From the IMG/VR virus record IMGVR_UViG_3300020021_000023, positions 1 through 41,514 of that record: 41,514 nt of DNA. One strand, given 5' to 3'. Made by a program: the position numbers and the translations under genes. This DNA is from a virus. This document shows, piece after piece, positions 6,458-20,346 of this stretch. The notes beneath the pieces were generated by a model. That model saw nothing but the letters and a program-made list of their open reading frames with translations, did no database searches and was not told the origin of the DNA. The stretch's first letter is position 1. Each line of letters begins with the position of its first letter.

Positions 6458-6875
6458 GTATCTTTACTACGTCACTCAGGAAGGTTACAAAGTCGGCGGT
6501 GCGCACGATACGAAAGCCGATGCTAATGCGGAGAAAGCGCGCTTCGTTAAACGTGCCAAAGAAATCGGCGCAAGGCGCAACTTCCGAATCAAGCGGGTGA
6601 AACAGATGGCAAATCCACAATTCGGCTCGTCCGCGTGGCGAAAGAAATACGCTGCAAAAGCAAAACGAAACCGGGCGGCGGCGGCGCGCAAGAACAAGCC
6701 CAAGCGCAAGGCGAAGCAACGCAAAAAGACCGCATCCCACCGGCGGGGAACGGCGGCAAAGAAGAAACGCATGGCTTCGATGATCCGTGGCAACCCGCCC
6801 GGCAACTGGACGAAGGTAAAGGCGTTCCGCGTGGTCAAGAAACACGGCCGCGCAGTGCTGGAGGTTCGCAAGTAG
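6450..6875 (+). CDS. Highly basic Lys/Arg-rich protein
   Basis: The 141-residue protein has a short ordered N-terminus (YLYYVTQEGYKVGGAHDTKADA) and then a Lys/Arg/Ala-rich tail (about 45-125) with a very high net positive charge, typical of nucleic acid condensation. It contains FGSSAWRKKYAAK, nearly repeated as FGSAAWRAKYAHK in the 10103 gene, plus RGNPPGNW. It is likely a DNA-binding core protein of the particle, inferred from composition only. Confidence 0.75.
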   Translation: MAKYLYYVTQEGYKVGGAHDTKADANAEKARFVKRAKEIGARRNFRIKRVKQMANPQFGSSAWRKKYAAKAKRNRAAAARKNKPKRKAKQRKKTASHRRGTAAKKKRMASMIRGNPPGNWTKVKAFRVVKKHGRAVLEVRK

Positions 6876-7987
6876 TGAACTTCATCTTCATCAGCTCGCC
6901 CAGCTTCGAACCGTGGGACTGGACCAATCCCGACGTGCAGGGAATCGGCGGTTCTGAAACCTCGCATATAGAAATGTCGAATCGCCTTTCTGATCGAGGA
7001 CACCAGGTCCACTCCTACGCGCCTACGCCGTTTGAAGACCGGCGCGTCAACCCGCACGGCGTGACCTGGGAGCAATGCAAGTTCGCGGACGCGAAGAAAG
7101 ACGGCGTGTGGATCGTCTACCGCGACCCGACCGTAATCGACGGAATCCCGGAAGGTCAACCGATTTGGCTCATCTGCCAAGATGTCGACTACCCGACGTT
7201 GACGGAAGCGCGGGCGAAGCGACTCACCCGAATCGTGGGCCTCTGCGAAACCCACGGGCGCTATCTGCGCTCGCGCTATTCGTTTGCAGAGGACAAGGTG
7301 TGCATTTCCTCGAACGGCATCAAGTCGGAAGAAATCGCGCGAGCGCTGCTCGATCCCCCGGCGCGCAACCCGAAACGGCTCATGTACGCATCGAGTCCCG
7401 ACCGCGGACTGCTGTACCTCGCGATGATCTTCCAGCGGGCGCGTGAACTGATGCCCGATCTGGAGTTGCACGTCTACTACGGCTTCGACAATATCGAAAA
7501 GATCATCGACAAGTTCCCCGGTGTCCGCAAAAAGACCAACGAAATTCGGAAGATGATGGACCAGCCGGGCCTGGAGTTCCACGGGCGCATGGGACAGCCG
7601 GAACTGATCCGCGAATGGCTGAAGGCCGGCATCTGGTGCCATCCGTCCAGCTTCGCCGAAACGTCATGCATCACCTGCATGGACGCACAGGCCTTGGGCG
7701 CGATCCCGATCACAACGCCAACGTGGGCGATCGGCGATAACGTCGAACACGGCGTGTTCATCGAAGGCGATCCCTACAACTGCAAGCTGACGCGGGCGCG
7801 GTACGTGCTCGAGCTGATGAAGCTCGTGAATGACCCGATCCGGCAGGAAGGCATTCGCGAAAAGATGATGCCTTGGGCGCAAGCTCATTTCGGCTGGGAT
7901 CACTTCGTCGACCAGTGGGAAGACTGGGCGCGCATAGACACTGGCGCTGTGAAACCGTCCTCACGCGTCAAGGAGGTCCACGCTTGA
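6875..7987 (+). CDS. GT-B glycosyltransferase (GT4-like)
   Basis: The 370-residue protein starts at GTG overlapping the upstream TAG. Its N-terminal domain has GGSETSHIEMSNRLSDRGHQV, the usual acceptor-side motif of GT4 enzymes. The C-terminal domain has RLMYASSPDRGL, LEFHGRMGQPEL and PSSFAETSCITCMDAQALG followed by GAIPITT, the nucleotide-sugar region with the E-x7-E-like pattern. It probably transfers a sugar from a nucleotide donor to a virion or host surface target. It is followed by a methyltransferase and a second transferase in one coupled block, pointing to a surface-modification module. Confidence 0.85.
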   Translation: MNFIFISSPSFEPWDWTNPDVQGIGGSETSHIEMSNRLSDRGHQVHSYAPTPFEDRRVNPHGVTWEQCKFADAKKDGVWIVYRDPTVIDGIPEGQPIWLICQDVDYPTLTEARAKRLTRIVGLCETHGRYLRSRYSFAEDKVCISSNGIKSEEIARALLDPPARNPKRLMYASSPDRGLLYLAMIFQRARELMPDLELHVYYGFDNIEKIIDKFPGVRKKTNEIRKMMDQPGLEFHGRMGQPELIREWLKAGIWCHPSSFAETSCITCMDAQALGAIPITTPTWAIGDNVEHGVFIEGDPYNCKLTRARYVLELMKLVNDPIRQEGIREKMMPWAQAHFGWDHFVDQWEDWARIDTGAVKPSSRVKEVHA

Positions 7988-8523: not shown

Positions 8524-8696
8524 TGAATCTCGACAAAATGCGCGCGCTTGCGTTAAGGGACACGTGCCCGATGTGTTTTGGAGAACTCGATACAGGCTGG
8601 GAATGCAACAACTGCGGTTACGACGCAAAGCCGCTTGTCGATGGTGAAAAGCTAATCCGGGGACCGATGGCAGGAGAGGCCAATTCAACATGCTAG
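8520..8696 (+). CDS. Double-CxxC zinc ribbon protein
   Basis: The 58-residue protein has CPMCFGELDTGWECNNCGYD, a four-Cys zinc ribbon. It is a close paralogue of the protein at 16569-16730, which shares TCP-CFGELDTGWECNNCGYDA. The C-terminus AGEANSTC is encoded by element-like sequence E4. The start overlaps the methyltransferase stop (ATGATG). The role is unknown; such ribbons often bind nucleic acids or protein partners. Confidence 0.75.
   Translation: MMNLDKMRALALRDTCPMCFGELDTGWECNNCGYDAKPLVDGEKLIRGPMAGEANSTC
8634..8683 (-). repeat. Boundary element E4, reverse, unpaired
   Basis: CTTGTCGATGG...GAGAGGCCAA. No forward partner was found upstream, since the preceding bases are inside the methyltransferase. 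It may be a cassette remnant. Confidence 0.55.
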
Positions 8697-9412
8697 ACCG
8701 AACCAAAAACATCGGAACTATCGGCTACATGGGCGGACTGATGAGCCTCCCCGAGCCGTTCGCCTGGTCCTTCGCGAATATGCTGCTGTTCACGCATGAA
8801 GCCGTTTGCCAACCGGGGGAACGGATCAAACCGGCGCGTACGGGCTATTCGTTCCATTCGGCGGGCCGGAACGACCTGGTGTCGCAAATCTCCGGGGACT
8901 GGCTGCTGATGCTCGACACGGATTTAGAGTTCGACCCGGATTTCGCAGCGCGGCTGATTACGATGTTCGAACGGTACAAGCTCGACATCGTGACCGGGCT
9001 CTACGCCTACAAGAATCACCCGGAAGTGGCAGTAGTCCACATGCTGAACGAAGAAACCGGACGGCATGAACCGATTTCGAAGTGGGATGAATCGGTCGAA
9101 TTGTTCGAGATCAGCTCCGCGGGCGCGGGGTGCCTGTTGGTCCGCAAATCCGTTTACGAACGGATCGTAACCGAACTTTATGAACCGCCGTTCCAGGTAA
9201 TCGGGGCCTACGGCGAAGACCACTCATTTTTCATGCGGGCGCGCAAGCTCGGCATCAAAGCGTATTGCGCGTGGAAGGTCCAGGCCGCGCATCTGGGCTT
9301 CAAAGCCGTCGAGCACAAGCCCGACCACTCGCTATCGATCTGTAACGAATACACGGTGTCCGGCTACGGCGCCGCAAGGCAAGGAGAGATTCAACATGGC
9401 AATGCAAGTTAG
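8690..9412 (+). CDS. GT-A glycosyltransferase (GT2-like)
   Basis: The 240-residue protein has GDWLLMLDTDLEFDPDF, a DxD metal and nucleotide-sugar site, and GEDHSFFMRARKLG, the usual catalytic ED region of GT2-like enzymes, then HLGFKAVEH. GRNDLV near residue 65 fits the acceptor or donor loop. It is coupled to the zinc ribbon gene. Together with the 6875 and 7984 genes it forms a glycan-modification block in the middle of the virion operon. Confidence 0.85.
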   Translation: MLDRTKNIGTIGYMGGLMSLPEPFAWSFANMLLFTHEAVCQPGERIKPARTGYSFHSAGRNDLVSQISGDWLLMLDTDLEFDPDFAARLITMFERYKLDIVTGLYAYKNHPEVAVVHMLNEETGRHEPISKWDESVELFEISSAGAGCLLVRKSVYERIVTELYEPPFQVIGAYGEDHSFFMRARKLGIKAYCAWKVQAAHLGFKAVEHKPDHSLSICNEYTVSGYGAARQGEIQHGNAS

Positions 9413-9746
9413 CTATTTGTGGCCGACAGCCGGAGCACCCCCGACTGGCGCGGTCGCTGCAAAAGTTTCCACGGTTTCGGTGGGTCTGAACCCGACTAAT
9501 TCGGGCGACACATCGCAAATCCTTACCCACGCCTTCAACCTCTCGAACGCGCAACTGACGCAAGGTTTCCCCTTCGTCTGGTTTGAACCGCTCGACTCGC
9601 TCGCGCAGGGCTCGAACTGGTTTCTGCTTTCGAGCGCACCGAATTTCGTGATCGTGGCCCGCGGAGCTACAACGGCTTCGCTCGACACAACGAACAATGT
9701 CCAGACCATCTGCCGCATGGAACGGATCTGGTCGGGTAGCAAGTAA
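9396..9746 (+). CDS. Small beta-rich protein, 116 residues
   Basis: Predicted mostly beta: NPTNSGDTSQILTHAFNLS, FPFVWFEPLDSL, NFVIVARGATT. It overlaps the end of the glycosyltransferase by 17 bp and has GGAGAG upstream. It is similar in style to the beta-rich virion proteins further downstream, but too short for the shared C-terminal pattern. A small capsid or decoration protein is possible. Confidence 0.65.
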   Translation: MAMQVSYLWPTAGAPPTGAVAAKVSTVSVGLNPTNSGDTSQILTHAFNLSNAQLTQGFPFVWFEPLDSLAQGSNWFLLSSAPNFVIVARGATTASLDTTNNVQTICRMERIWSGSK

Positions 9747-9754
9747 ACGGTTTT

Positions 9755-9859
9755 ATGTTGGCCTCGCCGAACAGTCCGGGACATCGAGATATGAAGGCTC
9801 GACAGTGTAGGATGTCTCGGATTTCGGCGCGGTGGGCACAACCAATTCAAGGAGGCTGA
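9755..9859 (+). CDS. Cassette leader ORF starting in E5
   Basis: A 34-codon frame opens as MLASPNSPGH inside E5 and stops 3 bp before the next ATG, with GGAGG in its last codons. It may encode a peptide or simply feed ribosomes into the 9863 gene. Confidence 0.35.
   Translation: MLASPNSPGHRDMKARQCRMSRISARWAQPIQGG
9758..9806 (+). repeat. Boundary element E5, forward
   Basis: TTGGCCTCGCCG...GCTCGACAG. The first ten bases of the outer block (GGCCTCGCCG) match its partner E6. Confidence 0.85.
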
Positions 9860-9862
9860 TAC

Positions 9863-10096
9863 ATGGCGGACGAACAGAAACCTGAAGTGCCGGAATTCGC
9901 GCAACCCCTGATCGACTATCTGGAAATGCAGTGGCATCCAGATCCGGCGCGGCATCCGGAGCAAGCCCAAAAGCTAATGGCTCTCCGCAGGGCGCTCGCT
10001 TTGCCCGATCCGCCAGAAGAAACGGCCCCTGTCGATGAAACGATAGATGACCTAGCCGCAAATTCCGGCGAGGCCAACAACCAGGAAGGAGAATAG
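9863..10096 (+). CDS. Small acidic cassette protein
   Basis: The 77-residue acidic protein (MADEQKPEVPEFAQPLIDYL...) is predicted helical, with EMQWHPDPARHPEQAQKLMAL. Its C-terminal ANSGEANNQEGE is read through E6. A GGAGG lies 8 nt upstream. It is the main gene of the E5-E6 cassette; function unknown. Confidence 0.65.
   Translation: MADEQKPEVPEFAQPLIDYLEMQWHPDPARHPEQAQKLMALRRALALPDPPEETAPVDETIDDLAANSGEANNQEGE
10029..10077 (-). repeat. Boundary element E6, reverse
   Basis: CTGTCGATG...CGGCGAGGCCAA. Pairs with E5 to bracket about 320 bp. Translated in frame as part of the 9863 protein. Confidence 0.8.
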
Positions 10097-10102
10097 CCCA
10101 CC

Positions 10103-10969
10103 GTGGCAACAACAACCAGAATCACCCGCGTCGTAGGCAATCGCGGACGCGCGTTCGGCTCTCCTTCCAGGAGAAACAAGAGATCCAAAAAACGGGCGAA
10201 GCACGCGGCCCGTCGCAATACCGGCGAAATCCTCGCGTACACGCTCGCAACCGGTAACCCCGGTAGAAAGGCAAAGAGAAAAAAGATGGCAATACGCAAA
10301 CGTAAGCTCAAGTTCGGTTCCGCGGCCTGGCGGGCGAAGTACGCCCACAAGCGAAAACGCACGAATCCAGGACGTCGACGGCGGCATCACGCAGTTTCAC
10401 GGCATCGCCGGCGGTCGACCCGGCCCAACCCAGGAAGGCGCAGCAATATGCGGCGAACACACCGGAGAAATCCCGGCGAGGGCAACATCAACTCGTACCT
10501 GACGAACGCAACCTTCGCAATCGTCGGTGCGATCGGCTCGCGGCTGGGCGCTCAGTTGATCCTTGGCGCCAATAACACGGGGCCGGTTGGCTACATCGCA
10601 AATCTGGCCGTCGGCGGCGCGGGCTGGTGGGTGGCCGAAAAGGTCATGAAGAACCGGGAAGCGGCGAAAGGCATCCTCACGGGTACGCTGATCGGCGTGA
10701 TTCTCCGGCTCCTGAACGACTACACGCCGTTCGGGCAGTACCTCAACAGTTGGGGCATGGGGGATTACCAGGTGCAAGGATTCGTGAATCCTCAAATCCT
10801 GGTCGATCCGACCAACAACTCGCAGGTTCTCGTTCCAACCGGATGGGGGGGCGCTGCGGCGCTTCCCTCCGGTGCTGCTGCGAGTCCGGTCATGGCGGGC
10901 GGCAATCGGGGCGGAATGGGCGCGGCAAGCTATGACGACGGCGGTTTATTCGGGCAGTCCAGCTACTAA
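10103..10969 (+). CDS. NPG-repeat basic protein with membrane segments
   Basis: This 288-residue protein (GTG start) has an extremely basic first half with repeated NPG motifs (GNPGRK, TNPGRRR, PNPGRRS, RRNPGEG) and FGSAAWRAKYAHK. It then has hydrophobic segments (FAIVGAIGSRLGAQLIL, GYIANLAVGGAGWWV, ILTGTLIGVILRLL) and a C-terminal module MGDYQVQGFVNPQIL shared with the 4859 protein. Part of the N-terminus is paralogous to the 6450 protein. A DNA-binding tail plus membrane anchors suggests it links the genome to an internal membrane or shell. This is inference from composition. Confidence 0.75.
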   Translation: MATTTRITRVVGNRGRAFGSPSRRNKRSKKRAKHAARRNTGEILAYTLATGNPGRKAKRKKMAIRKRKLKFGSAAWRAKYAHKRKRTNPGRRRRHHAVSRHRRRSTRPNPGRRSNMRRTHRRNPGEGNINSYLTNATFAIVGAIGSRLGAQLILGANNTGPVGYIANLAVGGAGWWVAEKVMKNREAAKGILTGTLIGVILRLLNDYTPFGQYLNSWGMGDYQVQGFVNPQILVDPTNNSQVLVPTGWGGAAALPSGAAASPVMAGGNRGGMGAASYDDGGLFGQSSY

Positions 10970-11001
10970 GCCGGGCAGTCCTCAGATCAACAGATTTCAG
11001 C

Positions 11002-11024
11002 TTCAAATTTAAAGGAGATTTGAA
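11002..11024 (+). promoter_or_regulatory. Hairpin presenting the ribosome binding site of the 11028 gene
   Basis: TTCAAAT (11002-11008) pairs with ATTTGAA (11018-11024), leaving the loop TTAAAGGAG with the Shine-Dalgarno core exposed. It lies 3 bp before the ATG of a candidate major virion protein. Loop display or mRNA stabilisation would suit high expression. Confidence 0.6.
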
Positions 11025-11027
11025 TTT

Positions 11028-11699
11028 ATGGGAGCAATTCCAGCAACAGCCGCCTTCATGGGCCGCAACACTAATGCCTTCGTGGCGAACACCGTCGATC
11101 AGGAACCGTATCTCTACTGGGATGCCGGAACGCTGATCACGGCGGCGGGATCGCAGGTACAGACTACGTACTTCGCGTTTGCGATTCCTTCCGGGCAGCC
11201 GAATCCGGCGCTCGGTGCCACCAACAACAACAACACGAAGTTGCAGACGAACATGCAGACGGGTAACCAGTTTCCCCCGCCTCGCTGCTTGCTGCTCAAC
11301 GCGATTTGCTTTCAGTACGCCTCGAACATGCTCAAAACGGACATCGACGCCATTGAGAACGGCGCGTATTTCGAGTTCAAAATCTCCGATAAGACCTTCT
11401 ACGAAGGATATCTGCGGGATTGCCCGGCGGGCGCGGGGCTGATGGGCGCTTCGACGAACAACGGCGAATCCGTCTTTACCAACGGCTGGCCTACTCCGGC
11501 GGGACGGCGCACTTTCGGAACGTGGGCAAAGTACATTCCGCCGTTGACGCGGTTCTCGATCAACGTATATTTCAACGGGTCGAATAACATCATTGCCGGG
11601 ACGGCGACGCCTCCGACGATGACGCCCTCGGGATCGGGCGGAACCGGAATGAACATCCGGATTGTGCTCGACGGTATCACCGCTCTTCCGGTGCAGTAG
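11028..11699 (+). CDS. Candidate major capsid protein (beta-rich)
   Basis: This 223-residue soluble protein has the strongest ribosome binding site in the operon (AAAGGAG). It is rich in Asn, Thr and aromatic residues and has alternating hydrophobic strands (FPPPRCLLLNAICFQYA, YFEFKISDKTFYEGYL, FSINVYFNG). Its C-terminal pattern (PLTRFSINVYF, then NIRIVLDGITALP) is shared in form with the 13369, 13850 and 15182 proteins. No HK97-type features (delta domain, protease, portal nearby) are seen. A single jelly roll is my inference, to be tested by structure prediction. Confidence 0.55.
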   Translation: MGAIPATAAFMGRNTNAFVANTVDQEPYLYWDAGTLITAAGSQVQTTYFAFAIPSGQPNPALGATNNNNTKLQTNMQTGNQFPPPRCLLLNAICFQYASNMLKTDIDAIENGAYFEFKISDKTFYEGYLRDCPAGAGLMGASTNNGESVFTNGWPTPAGRRTFGTWAKYIPPLTRFSINVYFNGSNNIIAGTATPPTMTPSGSGGTGMNIRIVLDGITALPVQ

Positions 11700-11719
11700 A
11701 CTGGGATTGTGGGGTTCGC

Positions 11720-11795
11720 TCCGGCCTGGTGTAATCGGCAAAAGCACGTCCAGGGGCATCCTTGGAAGATGTCGGTTCGAATCCGTTAGCTGGTG
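11720..11795 (+). ncRNA. tRNA-like sequence
   Basis: A 76-nt segment resembles a tRNA. The D-arm is GTGT-AATCGGCAAAA-GCAC, the anticodon-like stem is TCCAG/TTGGA, and the T-arm contains GGTTCGAATCC with the conserved TTCGAAT loop. Ends pair 5 of 7 (TCCGGCC/AGCTGGT). The anticodon loop is 8 nt (GGGCATCC) without T33, and the T-stem has a mismatch, so it is probably a decayed tRNA or tRNA mimic. CAT could be the anticodon remnant. Confidence 0.4.
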
Positions 11796-11864
11796 ATGAA
11801 CCTCACAGTTTGAATGGGCAGGGAGTGGCTTCTGGCCGCTACCCAAAACGCCTTGCCTGTTCTT

Positions 11865-11919
11865 TTGTCGGCCTCATCGGGCGTTCGCGTTCTGAGGGGC
11901 CTCCATCGTTCGACATGGG
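11865..11919 (+). repeat. Boundary element E7, forward (empty cassette, left end)
   Basis: TTGTCGGCCTCATCG...GTTCGACATGG. Its inner end GTTCGACATGGGCGGT is complementary, with one bulged T, to the inner end of E8 only 11 bp further on. Confidence 0.85.
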
Positions 11920-11940
11920 CGGTAGCTGTCTATAACCGCC

Positions 11941-11990
11941 CTGTCGAACCATCGGTATCCCATCTGGCCGGGATCTACGGGTAGGCCAGA
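11941..11990 (-). repeat. Boundary element E8, reverse (empty cassette, right end)
   Basis: CTGTCGAACC...GGGTAGGCCA. With E7 it forms a cassette of about 126 bp with no room for a gene. The variable part GGCCTACCCGTA (reverse complement) matches E1. Confidence 0.8.
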
Positions 11991-12007
11991 ACAAAAAGAA
12001 GCCCTCC

Positions 12008-12922
12008 ATGGCCTACACGCCCTTCACTAACGACTACTCCTCGGACATCGCAGGGCAGCAGCGTGCGCAAAACCGGCAAGCTTCACGCCGACAGCAAATA
12101 GCCCAAATCTTCGCGGACGGAAACAACGTTTTGGGTGGGCTGGTTCAGGAGTGCTGCTCCGATCCGGCCTTCGATGGGCAAGCGTTCTACGACGATACTT
12201 CAATCTTGGCCGCAAGTCTTGTGCCCGGGACCCCGGTAACGGCTGCGAATCCCGTCAATGGGATTTTGCAGCCGGCCGTACCTCTCACGCCGAACGACAT
12301 CCTCAGTAAGTCGCTGGGCTTTCCGGTTCGCGCTGGGGGTGGGAGATGGCCGCGGCCGCGCATCCCGGCAAGCTTTCTGCGCAACGGTGCGCGGCGCTAT
12401 CCGGATTACGGGCCGACGCTCGGGGCTCGAAGCTTGGTTCCAGATTGCCCGTGCGGGTTCGCCACTCAGCCGATTGTGATGTCCGCGCCTCAGCCTCCGG
12501 TATCGGTCGGCTCACCGATGCCAGCAGCTCCGCAGAATTGCCCGTATCCCGGTTGCTCGACGGGGAACATTTGCCTCGACCTAATCACCGGTTGCGTGTC
12601 GAATTCGCAGGTAACGCAGCAACAGGTGCAGGCTTGTACGCAGGCGGGTTATGCGACGTTTGGGAATTCAGGCACGTGGCTTTCGGCGATCATGCTCGGA
12701 TGCGGCGGAAATCTTCCTTACCTTGGGACTCCGTTGCCGAATCCTCCGCAGGCTGTGGGATCGATGGAAATGATGTTGCTGCAGGCGAATTCGAAGGGGG
12801 CGGCAGCGTCTTCGAAGGCGAGGGGCATGGGTGGGCTAGGACAATCTGATAATTCAAATGTCGGAGGGTTCTTGGCAGCGGTCGGAGTTTTTGGTATGCT
12901 CGTGTGGGCTTTGAAGAAATGA
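12008..12922 (+). CDS. Cys-rich surface protein with GLGQ motif and C-terminal helix
   Basis: The 304-residue protein has a Gln/Arg-rich helical N-terminus and a Pro/Cys-rich middle (VPDCPCGF, CPYPGCSTGNICLDLITGCV, QACTQAGY). A conserved GMGGLGQ follows, then a terminal helix (VGGFLAAVGVFGMLVWAL) ending KK. The GLGQ-plus-helix ending is the same as in the 1448-4855 cluster. Its TGA overlaps the ATG of a short MVWPTR leader. A membrane-anchored virion protein is likely. The start ATG lacks a strong ribosome binding site. Confidence 0.75.
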   Translation: MAYTPFTNDYSSDIAGQQRAQNRQASRRQQIAQIFADGNNVLGGLVQECCSDPAFDGQAFYDDTSILAASLVPGTPVTAANPVNGILQPAVPLTPNDILSKSLGFPVRAGGGRWPRPRIPASFLRNGARRYPDYGPTLGARSLVPDCPCGFATQPIVMSAPQPPVSVGSPMPAAPQNCPYPGCSTGNICLDLITGCVSNSQVTQQQVQACTQAGYATFGNSGTWLSAIMLGCGGNLPYLGTPLPNPPQAVGSMEMMLLQANSKGAAASSKARGMGGLGQSDNSNVGGFLAAVGVFGMLVWALKK

Positions 12923-12987
12923 TGGTTTGGCCTACTCGCGCAACGCACTGCGCGGCGGGTTTTGTGGGTTCGACATGGACGAATTGA
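12922..12987 (+). CDS. Short coupled leader ORF inside E9
   Basis: A 21-codon frame, MVWPTRATHC...VGSTWTN, begins at TGATG overlapping the previous stop and shares MVWPTR and VGSTW with the leader at 3104. Both are read through element sequence in the same frame. Confidence 0.4.
   Translation: MVWPTRATHCAAGFVGSTWTN
12926..12978 (+). repeat. Boundary element E9, forward
   Basis: TTTGGCCTACTCGCG...GTTCGACATGG, with an internal hairpin CGCGCA/TGCGCG. Pairs with E10. Confidence 0.85.
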
Positions 12988-13000
12988 GAGACATCACGAA

Positions 13001-13369
13001 ATGGGATCGGCGGCTATGATCATCCTTCGCCAGTTGTGCTGGTGGTTGCCGAAGTGCCGCAAATGTGGAAGCCGCGACCCTCTTTTCGCTGACCAATGTT
13101 TCAATTGCTCAGTCGCCGAATCGAAAGCGCAAATGTGGCGCGGCATCGCAGACGCTGCCGTTCAGTTGGCACCGTTGTTTGTTGAAGCTTTCACGCATCG
13201 AACCACCAGGAGCGTGCGACGCTTCGTGCGCAGAAATCCCCGGTTGCGATTGAAAGCCGCCCATTCCGATGAGTTGAAGGAATTGAGAAAAATGGCCGGG
13301 TTGCCTGAGTCCTCACCTGTCGAGCCTGCAAAGCCGACCGATGCTGCTGATAGCGGCGAGGCCAAGTAA
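13001..13369 (+). CDS. Zinc ribbon cassette protein
   Basis: This protein of about 122 residues has CRKCGSRDPLFADQCFNCS, a four-Cys zinc ribbon, after a WWLPK segment. A helical region and a basic patch (RSVRRFVRRNPRLRLK) follow, and the tail is DAADSGEAK, read through E10. The frame is open upstream through E9 (WVRHGR), so the true start could be TTG 12962, ATG 13001 or ATG 13016. Its TAA overlaps the next ATG. A nucleic-acid-binding accessory protein is plausible. Confidence 0.65.
   Translation: MGSAAMIILRQLCWWLPKCRKCGSRDPLFADQCFNCSVAESKAQMWRGIADAAVQLAPLFVEAFTHRTTRSVRRFVRRNPRLRLKAAHSDELKELRKMAGLPESSPVEPAKPTDAADSGEAK
13317..13366 (-). repeat. Boundary element E10, reverse
   Basis: CTGTCGAGCC...GGCGAGGCCAAG. 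Translated as VEP...SGEAK. GAGG sits 8 nt before ATG 13369. Confidence 0.85.
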
Positions 13370-13809
13370 TGACAGACGGAAAACTCACAGCAGCAAAGCT
13401 ACAAGCCTGCGTACGCTACAACTGCCCGCAGGGTAACTTCCTGCAACTGCCCTTCCCCGCTTCCATCTTCGAAATCGACTTGGACAACACGGACGGAACC
13501 GCCTTCCTCTCCGTACCAGGGCAGGAACTAAACGCGCCTCCAAGATACGACTGGCTGATCCACTCTTACTCCGCAATCGTGTCCCTGCCCTACACGTACA
13601 TGCGCATTCAGTGGCCGGATGGGCACTTTTTTTCAAACACTCCGGTAGATATCTGGTCGATGGTGCAGACGGGGAGAAACGGGCGGCTGTTTGAGCGTCC
13701 GAAGTTTATCGAGAAAAACGGCGTGATCCGGATGGACCTTGGAACGTCGCAGACTGATGTTGTGAACGTGAAGGTGTTTTTTGAAGGGTGTTTGTTGATT
13801 CCCGCGTAA
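13369..13809 (+). CDS. Beta-rich virion-like protein, 146 residues
   Basis: The N-terminal strand region (FLQLPFPASIFEIDLDN) and C-terminal pattern (NGVIRMDLGTSQTDVVNVKVFFEGCLLIP) match the ends of the 13850 and 15182 proteins in form: a GxxI-x-hydrophobic-D strand, then a strand ending F-x-G and a hydrophobic stretch. I read it as one jelly-roll-like unit. It starts at the ATG following E10 and is a core gene between two cassettes. Confidence 0.6.
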   Translation: MTDGKLTAAKLQACVRYNCPQGNFLQLPFPASIFEIDLDNTDGTAFLSVPGQELNAPPRYDWLIHSYSAIVSLPYTYMRIQWPDGHFFSNTPVDIWSMVQTGRNGRLFERPKFIEKNGVIRMDLGTSQTDVVNVKVFFEGCLLIPA

Positions 13810-13817
13810 AGTCTTTT

Positions 13818-13853
13818 ATGTTGGCCTCGTCACAGTTGAACGCTAAATCATGA
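13818..13853 (+). CDS. 11-codon leader from truncated element E11
   Basis: MLASSQLNAKS, with its TGA overlapping ATG 13850. It has the same N-terminus as the 16405 ORF, but the inner block of the element is missing. Confidence 0.3.
   Translation: MLASSQLNAKS
13821..13845 (+). repeat. Boundary element E11, forward, truncated
   Basis: TTGGCCTCGTCACAGTTGAAC. Only the outer block and the GTCACA class mark are present; no inner GTTCGACA and no partner. It looks like an excision scar or solo end. Confidence 0.6.
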
Positions 13854-14899
13854 CCAACGGCAACCCGTTACTCTCACGCTGGGCAGGCGACATGTACGCG
13901 CCCACCTGGGCAGGCATCTACAAAATGTTCCCCGGATTCTGCGATGTCGACTTCGATTATCCGTTCGGCAACGCAGGCGACTTCTTCTTCACGCAAACGC
14001 TCGGGCCTTCTGGCTCCGGCACGGAGTTCGCTTTAAAAATCCCGGTGAACATCGACACCGACGCCGATTACCTGGCGCGTGAAATCTACGTGGCGCCGAT
14101 CGCCGGTTCGACCGTGGGCGAATCCGGCGCGATCAACCCGCAGGACTTGAAAATCCGCGTGCGCGACGCCGACGGAAAAGCGATTACCTCGGACTGGGTC
14201 ACAGCTAACGACCTGTGCGGGCCGCTTGGTCCGTGCGCCTTGCCGTTGCGCAAAGGCGGGCTGATCCAAATCGACCTTTGGAACCAGGGCGACGGGACGC
14301 TAGTCGTGCAGATGGGTTTCAAGGGCTGGAAGCGTTTTCCTTGCAATGAAACGCAGGGCGAGATTCCGCCGTTCATGGTGCAGCGGCGCATGTTCTGCGT
14401 CGAGCAGCCGGGCCAGCGCTTCGAAGAGTTCGAGTACTTTTTCGAGTTCGCGAACGGCGCGAACGCTATGTATCCGCCGTGGGTGACGAACCTCCAGCCG
14501 ATTTCGCCGACTCAGATTTTCGCGAAGCTCTCGCTCCCAACTGAACAGGACGCTGATTTCTTGTGGCGCGGCACCACGGGGATGATCATGCAGGACGGCG
14601 GGCCTATTGCGCAGGTGCCGGACGCGTTCTTTCTGATCTTCTACGACCGCGACCAGGTGCCACTGCAAAATGTGGTTCCGCATCCGGGGATCAACCCGAC
14701 GCCTTCCGGACCCTCGGCCGACATGATCCTTTCTAACGGTGGCGGCCGCATGGCTCCGCACTGGCCGGAAATCTTTATCCCACGGGGCGGGGTGATTCCG
14801 GTTGATATTCTGTTGCAGGCTCCTGCGAGTGGGCTTTCGAGTGTGTCTTTTTCACTGAGGGGTTTTAAGGTGTATACCGATGGGGTGTGTGCGAGATGA
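13850..14899 (+). CDS. Internally duplicated beta-rich virion-like protein
   Basis: The 349-residue protein has two similar halves. Each begins with a D-A-D-(Y/F)-L motif (TDADYLAREIYVAP near 65; QDADFLWRGTTGMIM near 233) and ends with G-G-(L/V)-I-x-(I/V)-D strands and F-x-(L/F)-x-G-x-K (KGGLIQIDL...MGFKGWKRFP; RGGVIPVDI...SLRGFKVY). This is the clearest evidence for a repeated domain, consistent with two jelly rolls in one chain. It is a candidate capsid or penton-like protein. Its stop overlaps the next cassette gene (ATGA). Confidence 0.65.
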   Translation: MTNGNPLLSRWAGDMYAPTWAGIYKMFPGFCDVDFDYPFGNAGDFFFTQTLGPSGSGTEFALKIPVNIDTDADYLAREIYVAPIAGSTVGESGAINPQDLKIRVRDADGKAITSDWVTANDLCGPLGPCALPLRKGGLIQIDLWNQGDGTLVVQMGFKGWKRFPCNETQGEIPPFMVQRRMFCVEQPGQRFEEFEYFFEFANGANAMYPPWVTNLQPISPTQIFAKLSLPTEQDADFLWRGTTGMIMQDGGPIAQVPDAFFLIFYDRDQVPLQNVVPHPGINPTPSGPSADMILSNGGGRMAPHWPEIFIPRGGVIPVDILLQAPASGLSSVSFSLRGFKVYTDGVCAR

Positions 14900-15180
14900 A
14901 GTCTTTTAGGTCGGCCTCGTCACAATCGGGTGAGACGGTGCTGGTTCAGCAGCGACATGCAGGCGACGAGGTGCCCTGTCCGGACTGCAAAACCCTCATA
15001 AAATTGCAGCCTTCAGCGTGTACCTGCCGAACTTGCCGGGACACTCTGTACATACCTGAGCACCGCAATTCAAAGGGCAAGCACTGCCCCGCCAGTAGTC
15101 ACGGCTGGAAAGTCCCCGACCTGGTCGGACGCGATCTAGGTGGGTCACCGAGCACGGGAAGACCGGAGGCTAAAGCATAA
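14896..15180 (+). CDS. Zinc ribbon cassette protein (class B cassette)
   Basis: The 94-residue protein reads through E12 at its N-terminus (MKSFRSASSQSGETVLVQQR) and E13 at its C-terminus (LVGRDLGG...GRPEAKA). Between them is a zinc ribbon, CPDCKTLIKLQPSACTCRTC, followed by a second possible metal site (CPASSHGWK). The start overlaps the upstream stop (ATGA). Both ends being element-encoded shows that the elements here are part of the gene. Confidence 0.75.
   Translation: MKSFRSASSQSGETVLVQQRHAGDEVPCPDCKTLIKLQPSACTCRTCRDTLYIPEHRNSKGKHCPASSHGWKVPDLVGRDLGGSPSTGRPEAKA
14911..14959 (+). repeat. Boundary element E12, forward, class B left end
   Basis: TCGGCCTCGTCACAATCGGG...GGTTCAGCAGCGACATG. 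The inner block has the variant TTCAGCAGCGACA seen also in E26 and E53. Confidence 0.85.
15121..15174 (-). repeat. Boundary element E13, reverse, class B right end
   Basis: CTGGTCGGACGC...GGAAGACCGGAGGCTAAA. This variant is shared with E27 and E52, whose partners are also class B. Confidence 0.85.
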
Positions 15181-15181
15181 A

Positions 15182-16390
15182 ATGCCTCAACTGATCGAAC
15201 GAATGCAGCACTTCGTATTCCCCCTTAACACAGCCAATCTAGACCCAGTAGAGGGGCTTACAGTCAAGGTGGATCTGGACGCGCCCTTCCTCTTGCGCGG
15301 CGTGGTGATCTGGAACCTGAACGTACCTACCGAGCAAGGCGTAGATGGACAAATCGCGATCCGCTTCGCGCGTCCGAACGGAACCCTGATCCAGCGGCAG
15401 CTTACCAGCTCGAACCTGATCGCACCGGGGAACCAGTACAACTTCTCAGGCCTCGCGACGAACAAGGCGCTTGCCGCTCCGATCCGTCCGGGCGTCCTCT
15501 ATCCGGCGGGCTCGGTGATAAGCATGGATGTGCTGGGGTTGCCCACGGGCATTGTCGCGCCAACGGGAGCGATCATCATTTTCATCGGCACGAACATTTA
15601 CCGCGAGGGTCAGGTCTGGGCACCGAGCTACCCTCCGAACTGGACGGCGCTGGGGTACCTCGATAACCTCACCGTGCAAAACGTGCCGGTGCCGGGCGGC
15701 TTCCCTTCTCTCAATAATCCTTTCACCGCTCAAGCCGATTCGGACTTCGTGTTTCAAGCGGGCGTCTACACGGATTATTCGCTCTCGGGCACCCCCGCCT
15801 CCGTTGTGATCCATGACAACGACGAAGATATTCTTTTCAAACTTACCGCCGTCGCGGCGGGAGTCGCGGGCAACGCGATATCGATGCAGGTGATTGTTGC
15901 CGGGACGAACACGCCGTTTTCAATCAGCATCGTTGGGCCGACGATCATCGCGACGGCGGCAACCAATGGCGCGGGGGCGTCTCAGAACCTGGGCGATTTC
16001 GTGGCGAACCTGCTGGCAACGCCGGCCTTCAACGCTCTGGTGACGATCGGACCTCCGCAGGGCCTTCCGCAGTTTCCGTTTGGCACGGTGCCGCAGACGT
16101 TCCTGAGCGGCGGCGCGGGCGCTAGCGGGTCCGTGGTCGACCAGCTCGTCGACTTGGGCGTGATCATCCGTGACCCGGCTTACAAAGCGTACTCGAATGA
16201 CTACGTACCGGTGGCGTTGCTGTTTCCTTTCCTTGGGGCTCAGAATCCGGGGTGGCTGTATCCCGAAATTTACGTGCCAAGGCTTTCGCAGCTTTACTTC
16301 GACTTCAATTACCTGTATCCGGGGTTCACCCCTGCTAGTCCGATCACGTTTACACTGGGGTTGAAGGGTATGAAGGTGTATCCGCAGTAG
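15182..16390 (+). CDS. Large beta-rich virion-like protein with inserted domain
   Basis: The 402-residue protein starts at the ATG just after E13. The N-terminal half has APFLLRGVVIWNL and GSVISMDVLGLPTG...IIIFIGTNIY. The C-terminal half has ADSDFVFQAGVY and PEIYVPRLSQLYFDF...FTLGLKGMKVYP, which matches the ends of the 13850 halves. An inserted region at about 215-310 (AGNAISMQVIVAGTN, NLGDFVANLLATPAFNALV) resembles small beta modules common in phage fibres. It is a likely capsid or spike protein with duplicated jelly-roll-like domains. Confidence 0.65.
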   Translation: MPQLIERMQHFVFPLNTANLDPVEGLTVKVDLDAPFLLRGVVIWNLNVPTEQGVDGQIAIRFARPNGTLIQRQLTSSNLIAPGNQYNFSGLATNKALAAPIRPGVLYPAGSVISMDVLGLPTGIVAPTGAIIIFIGTNIYREGQVWAPSYPPNWTALGYLDNLTVQNVPVPGGFPSLNNPFTAQADSDFVFQAGVYTDYSLSGTPASVVIHDNDEDILFKLTAVAAGVAGNAISMQVIVAGTNTPFSISIVGPTIIATAATNGAGASQNLGDFVANLLATPAFNALVTIGPPQGLPQFPFGTVPQTFLSGGAGASGSVVDQLVDLGVIIRDPAYKAYSNDYVPVALLFPFLGAQNPGWLYPEIYVPRLSQLYFDFNYLYPGFTPASPITFTLGLKGMKVYPQ

Positions 16391-16404
16391 GCGGGTTTTC
16401 TTTT

Positions 16405-16569
16405 ATGTTGGCCTCGTCACAGTCGACCGCTTCGCCTGTTCCTCTGCCTGTTCGACATGGGCAAACTGAGCCTTGGACAATCGACTTGAATGATCCCAGA
16501 TTGCAGCCGGTCTACTGGTATGCAAATCGATTTCGTACCCAGTATGCCACCAAAGAAGGGGCGGACTGA
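16405..16569 (+). CDS. Cassette protein starting in E14
   Basis: The 54-residue frame is MLASSQSTASPVPLPVRHGQ... then DLNDPRLQPVYWYANRFRTQ. The whole first 20 residues come from E14. TGA overlaps the next ATG (TGATG). The downstream half looks like a genuine protein sequence, so the element seems to supply the N-terminus. Confidence 0.6.
   Translation: MLASSQSTASPVPLPVRHGQTEPWTIDLNDPRLQPVYWYANRFRTQYATKEGAD
16408..16460 (+). repeat. Boundary element E14, forward
   Basis: TTGGCCTCGTCACAGTCGACC...GTTCGACATGG. Shares GGCCTCGTCACA with its partner E15, 750 bp away. Confidence 0.9.
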
Positions 16570-16730
16570 TGGATCTCAAAAAGGTTCGTGCCGTGGCCCT
16601 GCAAGATACCTGCCCGATCTGTTTCGGAGAACTCGACACAGGCTGGGAGTGCAATAACTGCGGTTATGACGCTATGCCGCTCGTGACGGGCGCGCTACAA
16701 CCAATCGCAGACCCTCAGGGAGGGGTATAG
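16569..16730 (+). CDS. Double-CxxC zinc ribbon, paralogue of the 8520 gene
   Basis: The 53-residue protein has CPICFGELDTGWECNNCGYD, almost identical to the 8520 protein over 30 residues. The copies sit 8 kb apart, one beside a solo element and one inside a full cassette. Start and stop overlap both neighbours (TGATG; TAGTG). Function unknown. Confidence 0.75.
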   Translation: MDLKKVRAVALQDTCPICFGELDTGWECNNCGYDAMPLVTGALQPIADPQGGV

Positions 16731-16960
16731 TGCCGGAGAAAACCGCCAAACCCGCCGTCGTTCGCGCCAAGGCCGTGCATCCAGTCGTCCGCGACCTGAA
16801 GCAGTTCATCTCCGCGTGCGCACAACTGCGGGAACAAGCGCAGCCTGAAAAAGTCGTGGCGAACGTGGGGCGCGCGGTGGGCGAGTTCATCGGCGAGATG
16901 GATGAGGGGTCGAAAAAGCTTATAGGTGAAGTGGTCGGGATGTTCCGGGGGCGGCGATGA
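16730..16960 (+). CDS. Small helical cassette protein
   Basis: The 76-residue basic then amphipathic protein (GTG start, TAGTG overlap) has VRDLKQFISACAQLREQ and VGEFIGEMDEGSKKLIGEVVGMF. No family is recognised. Predicted all-helical; could be a small regulator or structural adaptor. Third gene of the E14-E15 cassette. Confidence 0.65.
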   Translation: MPEKTAKPAVVRAKAVHPVVRDLKQFISACAQLREQAQPEKVVANVGRAVGEFIGEMDEGSKKLIGEVVGMFRGRR

Positions 16961-17220
16961 TAATCTGGGCCGTGCTGAAGGATATAGGAATCCTCATCGC
17001 ACCGTCCAGGATTATCTGCCTTGGCGGCATGCATGAAGCGAAAGCGGGAATATTCGTGGCATCGGTGCGCGACGGCGAAAGTGGAGTGTTCGCGGACATC
17101 GATGAGGCTGAAACCTTCCTGGTCCACCAGTTGAGGAAAAGCATCCGGTCATTCACGCCCCTGACTGTCGAGCACTCCCCCGCCGACCAAGCCGCAAAGT
17201 GTGACGAGGCCAAACCATGA
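16957..17220 (+). CDS. Cassette protein ending in CDEAKP
   Basis: The 87-residue protein has alternating hydrophobic strands (IIWAVLKDIGILIAPSRIIC) and an acidic segment. Its tail TVEHSPADQAAKCDEAKP is encoded by E15. Start and stop overlap neighbours (ATGA). Unknown function. Confidence 0.65.
   Translation: MIIWAVLKDIGILIAPSRIICLGGMHEAKAGIFVASVRDGESGVFADIDEAETFLVHQLRKSIRSFTPLTVEHSPADQAAKCDEAKP
17165..17214 (-). repeat. Boundary element E15, reverse
   Basis: CTGTCGAGC...TGTGACGAGGCCAAA, followed by CC-ATG. GAGG is 7 nt before ATG 17217. Pairs with E14 around three complete genes and most of a fourth. Confidence 0.9.
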
Positions 17221-17852
17221 GCAGCGGATTCTGCGTACCAAAGAACACAGAAAACTTACTGACGCTCTCCCCACTCTATCGGGACTACTGGGGCGAGCAG
17301 ATGGCTGCGTTCACCAGGCGGCTCGACCGCTTCGCGCATCTTGGCTGCTACGTCCCGCGCTTCTACCACGCGCCCGACTCGGCTTCGCAATTCGTTGGAG
17401 TGCAGCCGAACGACTACAAAACGTACTTGCTCTCGCTGCCGGTGGGCTCGTTTATCATCGGCTTTTTGCACACGACTTCAAGCGCTCCGTTTGCGAACGG
17501 TTCACCATCGCCAACGCATCCGCCTCCTAATCCCAGCGGGTTCACGTGCCAGATTACGGACTTGTCCATCGATCACAAATGGTTCTCGCATCCGTGCCCT
17601 GAGGCGTGGTTCATCAACGACAACATGTTGAACGGATCAGACTTTCCGCCGTATCAGGATGCAAACTTCCCGTTCACTTTCCCAAGCTTTCCCCGGTTGC
17701 TTGCGCAGCCGTACCCGGTGGTAGGGCAGGGGCAGTTTCAAGTCGAGTTTTATAACTCTCTCGATACGGTCAACACAGACGTACAGATGACCTTCTTAGT
17801 TCTGGTTCCAGATGGACCTGATGCGAATGCGGGAAGGGTTTCGAACAAGTGA
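17217..17852 (+). CDS. Beta-rich virion-like protein, 211 residues
   Basis: The N-terminus is helical and aromatic (LSPLYRDYWGEQMAAFTRRLDRF). The rest is beta-like and Pro-rich (VGSFIIGFLHTTSS, TCQITDLSIDHKWFSHPC), ending GQFQVEFYNSLDTV...QMTFLVLVPDG, a form of the shared C-terminal pattern. It lies between two cassettes, as the other core structural genes do. Minor capsid role inferred. Confidence 0.55.
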   Translation: MSSGFCVPKNTENLLTLSPLYRDYWGEQMAAFTRRLDRFAHLGCYVPRFYHAPDSASQFVGVQPNDYKTYLLSLPVGSFIIGFLHTTSSAPFANGSPSPTHPPPNPSGFTCQITDLSIDHKWFSHPCPEAWFINDNMLNGSDFPPYQDANFPFTFPSFPRLLAQPYPVVGQGQFQVEFYNSLDTVNTDVQMTFLVLVPDGPDANAGRVSNK

Positions 17853-18082
17853 AGTCTTTTGGGTTGGCCTCATCGGGCGATCGCGCTGCGAACGAACCTG
17901 ACGGCGTTCGACATTCACGGGTTTCCTGGTGGCGAACCATGTTGTTTGAGGCGAGGTGCTGGTGGTGTTGGACGTATCCCAACATTGTCTTCATGCACCT
18001 GATGGGCTACAACCGGCAGACGATCGACTCACTTTGTGAAAGGCACGACGCGAAAATGCCGATTGATCCGAGGGGCGAATGA
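17849..18082 (+). CDS. Cassette protein with element-encoded N-terminus
   Basis: The 77-residue frame (GTG overlapping the upstream stop as GTGA) reads MKSFGLASSGDRAANEPDG-VRHSRV from E16, then an aromatic, Trp- and Cys-rich body (CWWCWTYPNIVFMHLMGY). It ends PRGE, overlapping the next ATG. The N-terminus shows the LAS...VRH signature. Possibly membrane-associated. Confidence 0.65.
   Translation: MKSFGLASSGDRAANEPDGVRHSRVSWWRTMLFEARCWWCWTYPNIVFMHLMGYNRQTIDSLCERHDAKMPIDPRGE
17864..17914 (+). repeat. Boundary element E16, forward
   Basis: TTGGCCTCATCGGGCGATCGCG...GTTCGACATT. Pairs with E17. The variable part resembles E7 and E47 (TCGGGCG, GATCGCGCT). Confidence 0.85.
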
Positions 18083-18222
18083 CCCGCGACCTTGCAGCAC
18101 TCGCGGCGCGCGTCCTCTTGATCTGGTCGACGTGGGCGTTTCATCGCCTGTCAGCACGAAAGCGGCAACGTGTCGAGAAGGCTCAGGCCGCACAAGCCGG
18201 AAACGAGAGCGAGGCCAAATAA
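18079..18222 (+). CDS. Small membrane cassette protein ending ESEAK
   Basis: The 47-residue protein has one hydrophobic segment (ALAARVLLIWSTWAF) and a basic-then-polar tail (RKRQRVEKAQAAQ) ending GNESEAK through E17. The start overlaps the previous stop (ATGA). Likely a one-helix inner membrane protein. Confidence 0.6.
   Translation: MTRDLAALAARVLLIWSTWAFHRLSARKRQRVEKAQAAQAGNESEAK
18170..18219 (-). repeat. Boundary element E17, reverse
   Basis: GTGTCGAGAAGG...GAGCGAGGCCAAA. GAGG lies 10 nt before ATG 18225. Confidence 0.8.
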
Positions 18223-18224
18223 TC

Positions 18225-18758
18225 ATGCCCGTTGAATCCCAATCCGCAGAGGCGTTACAACAGGCGCTCGATACGATGGTCAAGCTGGCGAAATCACGCC
18301 GTACCGTCTGGGGGACGCCGGTTCCTTGGTTCGCGGAGCCGATCTTTGCCAAGGGCTTTGTGGTGGCTCCCGACTTCGGCGCGGCTAACCAGCTCGTCAT
18401 CGCTACCTACGAAGTCCCACGCGGGTACACGACACTATTTTGCGGCGTGGTCTTCGGATACGCCGGGGGCGGGGTGGCACTTCCGGGGCAAGTGCTCTTT
18501 ACCATCGATTCGCTGAACCCGAACCCGGTTGTAGTTTCTCCGCAGCAAGGCTACGCGGTGAAGGACTATGCGAACGTGCCGTTTGCACTGGGAACCTTAG
18601 CGCCTGGGAACCCGTGGCCGGTGGAGTTCAAGTTCGATCAGAATGAAACCGTGCGCATCAAAGGGCAAACGGTTTCAACGGTGGCGACTGGAGCGGGGAA
18701 CTTTTTGTTTGGTGCTCTGTTCGGGTGGCAGTGGGCTACGGCGGGATGGGAAGGCTGA
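18225..18758 (+). CDS. Beta-rich virion-like protein, 177 residues
   Basis: The N-terminal helix (ALQQALDTMVKLAKSRR) is followed by beta-like segments: LVIATYEVPRGYTTLFCGVVFGY, VLFTIDSL, VEFKFDQNETVRIKG, NFLFGALFGWQWA. Its length fits a single jelly roll. It lies in the same core series as 11028, 13369, 13850, 15182 and 17217. The start follows E17 directly. Confidence 0.55.
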   Translation: MPVESQSAEALQQALDTMVKLAKSRRTVWGTPVPWFAEPIFAKGFVVAPDFGAANQLVIATYEVPRGYTTLFCGVVFGYAGGGVALPGQVLFTIDSLNPNPVVVSPQQGYAVKDYANVPFALGTLAPGNPWPVEFKFDQNETVRIKGQTVSTVATGAGNFLFGALFGWQWATAGWEG

Positions 18759-19518: not shown

Positions 19519-20346
19519 ATGAAACAAACCCTCCTACTCACCCTCCTGACGCTCCCGCTTTTCTCTCAAACCATAACCCCATTGCTCACGGACCCCTTCG
19601 CCTACCCCGGCTCAACAGTAAATTTAAATCTGATCTTCACCGACTCGCACTCCGCACCCACACAAACGGCGGGCCTGCAGTGGACGATTGCCATTCCCTC
19701 GGGCCTCACCATGGGAACCCCCAAGCCGGGCGCGTCGGCCGTCACCGCTCAAAAGGCCGTCACCTGCACGGCGGGCGTCTGCGTGCTCTCGGGGAACAAC
19801 GCGAACGTGATCCCCGGCGGCTCGGTGGCGGTGATCCCCTTGACCGTAGGTTCTTCGGACTCGGGGCCGGTGCCGTTCACTATAAGCAGCCTGGTCGCGA
19901 CTTCGGCAAGCGGTACCAATGTGCCGATCACGTTCCCGGATGGGACGGGGAGCAATGCAATTTCGATAAATGTGGTTCCGTCGACGGGGACTACGCCATG
20001 GTTTACGCAGTCGGTGGGGCAGACGGTGTGCACCATTAGCAAGGTCGCGCAAGTGCCCATCCGTGTTTCCTGGACGTGTAACAACCCGTTCGGAGGAACG
20101 TCCGGGAGCTACACGGCGGCGGCGAGTTTTACCGGCGTCAACAGCTTCACGGTTTCACTCAGCAGCCTCGGGGCGGATACGATTTTTTGCACGATCTCAG
20201 TGAACAACACGCCGGCGCCCGCGACGGTTCCATTGCTCACTTCCTTCAATCCGTTCGCGACCGAAACCGCGCTGTCCCCAACCACGGCGGGTTATTTCTG
20301 CAACTCCAATTCTTTCCTTGGTCCTGGCAGCATCATTTGGCCCTAG
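19519..20346 (+). CDS. Secreted cohesin-like protein
   Basis: The 275-residue protein has a signal peptide (KQTLLLTLLTLPLFSQ). A beta-sandwich region at about 25-155 (NLNLIFTDS, LQWTIAIPSGLTMG, VCVLSGNNANVIPGGSVAVIPL) has the spacing of cohesin-like domains common in secreted Acidobacteriota proteins. A second Cys-containing domain follows (VCTISKVAQVPIRVSWTCNNPFG). Likely an exported adhesion or binding protein. Its 3' flank shares TAGTACTCC and TTTTTCCTGATA with the 23998 gene. Confidence 0.65.
   Translation: MKQTLLLTLLTLPLFSQTITPLLTDPFAYPGSTVNLNLIFTDSHSAPTQTAGLQWTIAIPSGLTMGTPKPGASAVTAQKAVTCTAGVCVLSGNNANVIPGGSVAVIPLTVGSSDSGPVPFTISSLVATSASGTNVPITFPDGTGSNAISINVVPSTGTTPWFTQSVGQTVCTISKVAQVPIRVSWTCNNPFGGTSGSYTAAASFTGVNSFTVSLSSLGADTIFCTISVNNTPAPATVPLLTSFNPFATETALSPTTAGYFCNSNSFLGPGSIIWP

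Follow-up and report, generated by a model that had tools for sequence, protein, structure and literature searches.

We propose, with moderate confidence, that the window analysed here (IMG/VR record IMGVR_UViG_3300020021_000023, the whole stretch of 41,514 nt) represents one complete circular genome from a so far undescribed group of tailless viruses of bacteria, the particle of which would have an internal membrane and would assemble around condensed DNA without a packaging motor. The window has circle-like ends, a conserved gene block, repeated domains, C-terminal membrane anchors (tail anchors), strongly basic proteins and a match to Salisaeta icosahedral phage 1 (SSIP-1), and it has no recognisable P-loop motor. 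A preliminary description of the same DNA had suggested a tailless, membrane-containing particle with jelly-roll shell proteins and no packaging ATPase; the tailless membrane particle lacking such an ATPase is the best reading in view of the conserved family block, the SSIP-1 match and the excess of C-terminal anchors, whereas the jelly rolls were not confirmed. Genes are named below by their lowest coordinate in the window, + and - giving the strand.

Circular elements with a shared gene core and no recognisable motor

The window is bounded by a 139-nt repeat (1-139, matching 41376-41514) with 4 mismatches, all inside the first 13 nt, and removal of one copy leaves a circle of 41,375 bp. The protein of gene 13850 led to a 41-kb contig, G001 (IMGVR_UViG_3300024323_000005), which has an exact 127-nt end repeat and with which positions 0.3-18.8 kb of the window are colinear in reverse orientation; because their ends repeat, the two are apparently circles of about 41 kb. 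Viral contigs searched with a three-row profile of 10103 gave ten loci, eight of them in contigs new to the analysis. Exact end repeats are present in G005 (35,587 bp; 127 nt), G008 (44,983 bp; 123 nt), G010 (35,311 bp; 67 nt) and G011 (32,955 bp; 123 nt), while G006 (85,924 bp) has none and carries the family element in about its first 46 kb. The family as considered here comprises seven long members, namely the window, these five circle-like contigs of 33-45 kb and the 46 kb of G006, together with five fragments.

Profiles built from the window, G001 and two fragments found most gene families across the long contigs at E 1e-3 or better. We then tracked 16 families with deepened profiles, which include their own hits and, for 4859, hand-picked members. 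Eleven are present in all seven long members (290, 1956, 4859, 5541, 10103, 11028, 13369, 15182, 17217, 40110 and 39074), and four of these (11028, 13369, 15182 and 17217) belong to the six genes singled out in the preliminary description. Families 9396 and 37662 occur in six long members, 18225 in five and 12008 in four. For 13850 a match is tabulated in six genomes, but we count clear homologues in four because the frame matched in G005 and G010 is the 15182 homologue; the 13369 family is matched weakly in G005, G010 and G011 (E 4e-7 to 3e-5), and there by larger proteins.

Searches of phage records with 13850, 11028, 5541, 18225, 290, 10103 and the 11028 homologue of G010 returned nothing at E <0.01, the best value for the six window proteins being 0.09, and the M23 peptidase gene described below was the sole protein tried that matched these records widely. 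Two scans of genome contigs found no relative, and the 5541 homologue of G010 found nothing among plasmids. We found no description of the family in the literature on tailless or jelly-roll viruses without ATPase, SPV1, SSIP-1 relatives and capsid donor strands, or under the dataset numbers of six of the contigs, a coverage from which subscription papers were mostly absent, and these bacterial virus-like circles are apparently undescribed so far. Since the proteins tried lack relatives among 50,697 phage records, with the exception of one virion gene, the family marks unmapped viral diversity.

The statement of the preliminary description that no Walker-motif ATPase is encoded anywhere in the circle is borne out both by pattern searches and by a check of conserved columns. 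The strict Walker-A pattern, [AG]x4GK[ST], occurs in 2 of 405 frames of the window circle and in 1 of 392 frames of G001, never at a conserved position, and G005, G010 and G011 have two, three and one matches, none within a core family; there is no credible Walker-A protein in these five genomes. One of the four matches in G008 looks genuine and belongs to a 480-residue helicase C-domain protein (Pfam PF00271), and the element half of G006 has three, one of them at the C-terminus of its 10103 homologue and unshared by other members. The relaxed pattern, GK[ST], forms a conserved column in none of the 16 family alignments. The strict pattern recovers the annotated ATPase in SSIP-1, PM2, PRD1 and P23-77.

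Profile searches for FtsK/HerA-type ATPases found nothing in the elements: PF01935 (HerA-type DUF87) matched neither of the two records searched and PF01580 (FtsK) none of the 12 family records, against three of the four motor-bearing tailless controls. PF04665 (A32) was absent from all seven long members and found one of four controls. HK97-type packaging genes, sought with terminase profiles, were not detected in the element either: PF03237 matched one of the 12 family records, inside the tailed-phage half of G006 (two of four tailed controls), PF03354 none of the seven long members (one of two tailed controls) and PF05876 none of the seven, with lambda as a control at E 4e-53. The large terminase that characterises Caudoviricetes is therefore not seen by these three profiles in the window or the other circles, nor does the window carry the FtsK/HerA-type packaging ATPase usual in double-jelly-roll Varidnaviria.

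The controls also measure what may have been missed, and so bear on the idea of a tailless virus that either borrows an FtsK/HerA-like ATPase from its host or has a motor without a standard P-loop. Among tailed controls the strict pattern finds the terminases of P22 and T7 but misses that of lambda, and in HK97 only the relaxed form touches what we read as the likely P-loop site; the incomplete recovery of controls by PF01580, PF03237, PF03354 and PF04665 points the same way. However, some core family of unknown function would then need to hide a motif-less ATPase, no GK[ST] column is conserved in the family alignments, and PF05876, which recovers lambda, is silent on the family. We consider such a hidden or borrowed motor rather unlikely, although it is the foremost of the three alternatives weighed in this work.

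Another explanation is a helper-dependent satellite, which would encode some surface proteins of its own and would need no motor because a co-infecting tailed phage packages it. Beyond about 46 kb, G006 consists of a tailed-phage gene set that includes a terminase and a frame of tape-measure size; its positions 85,609-85,924 are 95.6% identical to 41,623-41,938, and two more stretches common to both halves are 93% and 91% identical (316, 194 and 120 bp for the three). This joining of an element to a terminase-bearing tailed set, with near-identical stretches in both halves, is what keeps helper dependence under consideration. Element and tailed phage may recombine within a single host, or the contig may be a chimaeric assembly, and the latter is as likely because the junction sits among shared repeats. 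Furthermore, a terminase match occurs in just one of the 12 family records, the tailed half of G006 holds none of the 16 element families, and the other circles keep a large conserved virion-like block. Satellites that borrow the capsid of a helper would not need a virion block of their own. Helper dependence is thus judged unlikely, and the motorless tailless virus remains the reading that we follow below.

Repeat domains in the virion-like block and a detached last strand

The preliminary description had attributed a common C-terminal beta pattern to six genes, 11028, 13369, 13850, 15182, 17217 and 18225. All six frames are present at the starts given there, that of 18225 beginning inside a longer frame at an internal ATG, and a homologue of each in G001, with 50-59% identity, shows that they are real genes. 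The common pattern holds for 13369 (13369-13809, +), 13850 (13850-14899, +) and 15182 (15182-16390, +), on the evidence of HHalign and shuffled sequences. By contrast, for 11028 (11028-11699, +) and for 17217 (17217-17852, +) and 18225 (18225-18758, +), both core proteins of the block, it is an impression only because sequence does not link them to the others.

Five copies of one beta-rich domain are found in these proteins, one in 13369 and two each in 13850 and 15182 (halves a and b). With HHalign on sub-family profiles, all four pairs of a 13850 domain with a 15182 domain score 95-96% and the two 15182 domains score 67% with each other, while 13369 scores 58% with 13850a, 43% with 15182a, 19% with 15182b and 2.2% with 13850b; over 120 pairs, the best one involving any other family reaches 3.7%. 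Pairwise comparison against 150 shuffles gives Z values of 13.7 for 13850b-15182a, 9.6 for 13850a-15182b, and 6.9 and 5.1 for the remaining cross pairs. The pair 13850b-13369 has a Z of 4.3 in spite of its low HHalign score, and pairs with 11028, 17217 or 18225 do not exceed 3.1 (17217-11028, equalled by 1 of 150 shuffles). That 13850 is made of two similar halves, as first proposed, is upheld by way of 15182: compared directly, its halves match weakly (Z 2.2, with 7 of 150 shuffles as good; HHalign 32%), but the duplication is real because each half of 13850 strongly matches each half of 15182. The second repeat of the window 15182 contains an inserted domain of about 100 residues that has no counterpart in the other six aligned members.

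The window copy of 15182 ends with an intact last strand (LGLKGMKVYPQ; ..TFTLGLKGMKVYPQ), whereas the 15182 proteins of G001, G006 and G008 end before it. In these genomes the strand is found at or near the end of proteins encoded downstream on the same strand of DNA: two proteins of about 420 residues in G001, an FG-GAP propeller protein in G006 (PF14312, E 2e-30) and a short frame in G008. A search of all frames of eight sets finds the motif [LIVF]x[LIVF][KR]GxK[VIA][YF] 11 times, against 0.05 expected in shuffled frames, a count that is descriptive because the motif was written after the first cases had been seen. All 11 occurrences lie within 14 residues of a C-terminus, and the carriers are four second domains of 13850, the window 15182, the four downstream proteins of G001, G006 and G008, and two G008 proteins (627-1925 and 2980-4233) far from the block. 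In G005, G010 and G011, 15182 is intact and gives no motif match because its last strand departs from the motif. We hypothesise that a domain of a shell protein is completed by strands coming from interchangeable spikes; the presence of one C-terminal strand in spike-like proteins that differ in other respects suggests that receptor binding could be changed in a plug-in manner. In G008 a tRNA-Met gene (L037:4809-4882) is situated at the start of the short frame with the detached strand and is possibly a site of exchange or integration.

The strongest candidate for a main capsid protein is 11028, a virion-like protein that is well conserved and has an invariant VQ at its C-terminus. Its family has 11 members that are 41-88% identical to the window copy; one of the 11 matches a PHROG, of unknown function, at E 0.006. 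The jelly-roll fold expected for the shell proteins was not confirmed by structure prediction. The AlphaFold models of 13850 (two-row alignment) and 11028 (three-row alignment) have predicted local distance difference test (pLDDT) values of 39.2 and 38.7, and Foldseek searches with them gave E 0.001 or better in 0/820, 0/210 and 0/188 cases. The 13850 model retrieved the STIV capsid protein at E 7.6e-3 (probability 0.23) and also a chlorovirus capsid protein, neither being significant. With VIA-align, its best match is to p24 GOLD domains (Z 10.0, 2.4 A over 92 residues, residues 46-160), that of the 11028 model reaching Z 5.0 (3.6 A over 87 residues), and the model suggests that the first half of 13850 may be a beta-sandwich. 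As the models are poor and the fold searches gave no usable match, we make no jelly-roll claim. Profile searches of the PDB found nothing at E <0.2, and 20 window proteins compared with PHROGs gave no credible match to a portal, an HK97-fold capsid or a tail, save for M23-domain matches to tail proteins.

Membrane anchors, basic proteins and known viruses

The link to a known virus is gene 290 (290-1447, +), which encodes a transglutaminase-like protein with a C-terminal membrane anchor, homologous to gp34 of SSIP-1, a protein annotated as structural in the SSIP-1 record. The match has E 5e-5 by blastp, 7e-4 with a two-row profile and 7.7e-6 with a seven-row profile, for which gp34 is the sole match at E 0.3 or better among 1524 open reading frames of nine phages. 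Both proteins have the same layout, a transglutaminase-like core followed by a hydrophobic stretch and a short tail, and in the eight-row alignment D-C-D, one histidine and one aspartate are invariant; Pfam names a transglutaminase domain in gp34 (E 9e-7) and not in the window copy. G001 also has a PAPS reductase with relatives in SSIP-1 (E 1.5e-30) and P23-77, which is weak evidence since lambda has one annotated as well. Other matches at E 0.001-0.1 between mechanically chosen frames and known phages were taken as chance.

Genes ending in a hydrophobic segment (threshold 1.4) are frequent in the seven elements (52 of 426), as in SSIP-1 (7 of 57), PM2 (2 of 15) and FLiP (2 of 14), against 9 of 276 in lambda, P22, HK97, T7 and the tailed half of G006; a stricter tail-anchor rule gives 29 of 426, 4 of 57 for SSIP-1 and 1 of 276 for the tailed sets. 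These counts are based on mechanically chosen genes, some of which are probably not genes. In the window, such anchors are carried, besides 290, by the Gly-rich protein 1956 (1956-3104, +; anchor recognised by hydrophobicity), by 12008 (12008-12922, +) and by the muralytic M23 peptidase (28572-29162, +; PF01551, E 6e-32).

Directly before 11028 lies 10103 (10103-10969, +), in the protein of which a Lys/Arg-rich domain (net +44 over the first 130 residues) precedes a hydrophobic domain; it is a candidate DNA-condensing membrane protein. Over its 11 members the net charge of this region is +29 to +48 and the hydrophobic domain is conserved. The core protein 5541 (5541-6290, +) also has a basic N-terminus, with a net charge over its first 130 residues of +18 in the window and of +5 to +30 in nine members. 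The small membrane protein 4859 (4859-5287, +), which gives cross-hits to the 10103 family, has in common with 10103 a C-terminal motif, GDYQxQ..VNPQIL, that is present in relatives too.

From these genes we infer how the particle could be built, including its shape, the capsid roles, the condensation and co-assembly of the DNA and the replication mode. The block 9396-18758 would build shell and vertices, with 11028 as main capsid protein and 13369, 13850 and 15182, together with 17217 and 18225, forming the remaining shell or the vertices. C-terminal anchors would hold several proteins in the viral membrane, including the transglutaminase-like enzyme, and the anchored cell-wall peptidase may serve entry or exit. 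The basic proteins 10103, through its +44 head joined to a hydrophobic domain, and 5541 would condense the circular DNA, around which membrane and shell would assemble without a motor brought by the virus. Replication would rely on the virus's own initiator and the host replisome.

SSIP-1 resembles the family in its circular double-stranded DNA (dsDNA) genome of similar size (43.8 kb), in gp34, in having several other tail-anchored proteins, one of which appears lysozyme-like in our own reading of its sequence, and in the PAPS reductase shared with G001. It differs in possessing a packaging ATPase (gp40, which the Walker-A pattern finds and which is absent from the window), an integrase and a primase, and beyond 290 none of the 16 families matches SSIP-1, its structural set included, at E <0.01. 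The closest functional analogue would be SPV1 (Portogloboviridae), by analogy of description: its circular dsDNA is kept as a nucleoprotein coil inside a membrane within a single-jelly-roll shell, and its genome is described with glycosyltransferase and methyltransferase genes, no encoded polymerase and no mention of a packaging ATPase (PMC8459092). Circular dsDNA, the proposed inner membrane and glycosyltransferase and methyltransferase genes are likenesses by description, but SPV1 has a 20 kb genome and a hyperthermophilic archaeal host, and the jelly roll is established for SPV1 only. The Odin group and FLiP (Finnlakeviridae) are described as prokaryotic jelly-roll viruses without packaging ATPase (PMC5894146, PMC6260650), and share this absence with the family; Odin genomes measure 7-11 kb and that of FLiP is single-stranded with 9.2 kb, and FLiP proteins give no credible match to the family. 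PM2 (corticovirus), PRD1 (tectivirus) and P23-77 (Thermus phage) are likewise tailless membrane phages, with circular records for PM2 and P23-77, but each has a Walker-A packaging ATPase and no credible homologue of a core family. We have filed the family under none of the SSIP-1-like, Portogloboviridae or Odin/FLiP groups.

Several points weigh against a motorless tailless virus. The jelly roll is undemonstrated, both models having a pLDDT of 39, and no capsid protein match was obtained in Pfam, PHROGs, the PDB or nine phage genomes. Just one virion gene ties the family to a known virus, and PRD1 and P23-77 have no hydrophobic-end genes by the same rule (0 of 22 each), so that tail anchors do not mark membrane phages in general. 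In G006 a family element is joined to a tailed phage. A FLiP structural protein matched 10103 at E 6e-4 with 3 sequences but at 0.13 with 11, and we attribute the similarity to Arg-rich composition because it faded as the profile deepened. Finally, the motorless jelly-roll viruses in the papers cited here have genomes of 7-20 kb, which would make 33-45 kb an outlier, the family genomes being about 1.6 to 6 times larger than those of SPV1, Odin and FLiP. Double-stranded DNA of tens of kb is thought to require an ATP-driven motor to enter a shell (PMC5894146); if our proposal is true, a motorless family of 33-45 kb would make the size limit of motor-free dsDNA enclosure directly testable.

The same genes can be viewed as those of a plasmid-like element making a secreted or cell-surface structure, with which the lack of a cultured relative, the glycosyltransferase genes and the apparent signal peptides of 19519 and 23998 would agree. 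However, the relaxase profile PF03432, the one relaxase family searched, is found in none of the seven long members, the circle has no Walker-A partition ATPase, and an anchored cell-wall peptidase together with a homologue of an SSIP-1 structural protein fits a virion better; that all family records were drawn from a viral collection adds a weak argument. That the element is not a virus is unlikely, and the least probable of the three alternatives. For the virus itself, we advance only tentatively, as a doubtful extension, that it could represent a separate high-rank lineage of motorless circular dsDNA viruses of 33-45 kb, whose particles form around DNA that membrane-bound basic proteins have condensed, with vertices built from a split domain whose last strand is supplied in trans by the C-terminal tails of interchangeable spikes.

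Remaining genes and dispersed repeats

Upstream of the block, the window encodes a glycosyltransferase family 4-like protein (6752-7987, +; PF13439 at E 6e-6, below the cut-off of that profile), a family 2 glycosyltransferase (8690-9412, +; PF00535, E 6e-9) and the small core protein 9396 (9396-9746, +). The putative replication initiator 37662 (37662-38627, +) has a weak match (E 0.015) to PHROG 678, 'replication initiation O-like'. Two core proteins are on the other strand, 39074 (39074-39580, -) and 40110 (40110-41514, -), the latter with its 5' end over the circle join, as read across it (continuing at about 140-204). Hydrophobic starts resembling signal peptides are seen at 19519-20346, 23998-26130 and 26573-28132, the last with a weak PQQ/propeller match; a DUF192 protein (E 4e-11) is encoded at 30278-30712 and a partial C-5 cytosine methyltransferase (E 1e-4) at 23135-23929.

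The window contains 41 copies of a dispersed 44-49-nt element (GGCCTC ... TTCGAC or variants), spread from 5301 to 40100 over both strands, against 0.56 expected. Of these, 33 lie within 40 nt of a gene end (mean of 11 and maximum of 21 in 200 randomisations), and the element often encodes the ..EAKP or ..PEAKA ends of small proteins. One exact pattern for it, which was too strict, found nothing in viral contigs. G001 has 22 copies of the element; G008 and the first 46 kb of G006 lack it and have intergenic dispersed repeats of their own instead (AAAGCGCG ... GAGCGCCAACA in G008 and GCTACTCCAG in G006), as if each virus had its own dispersed repeat.

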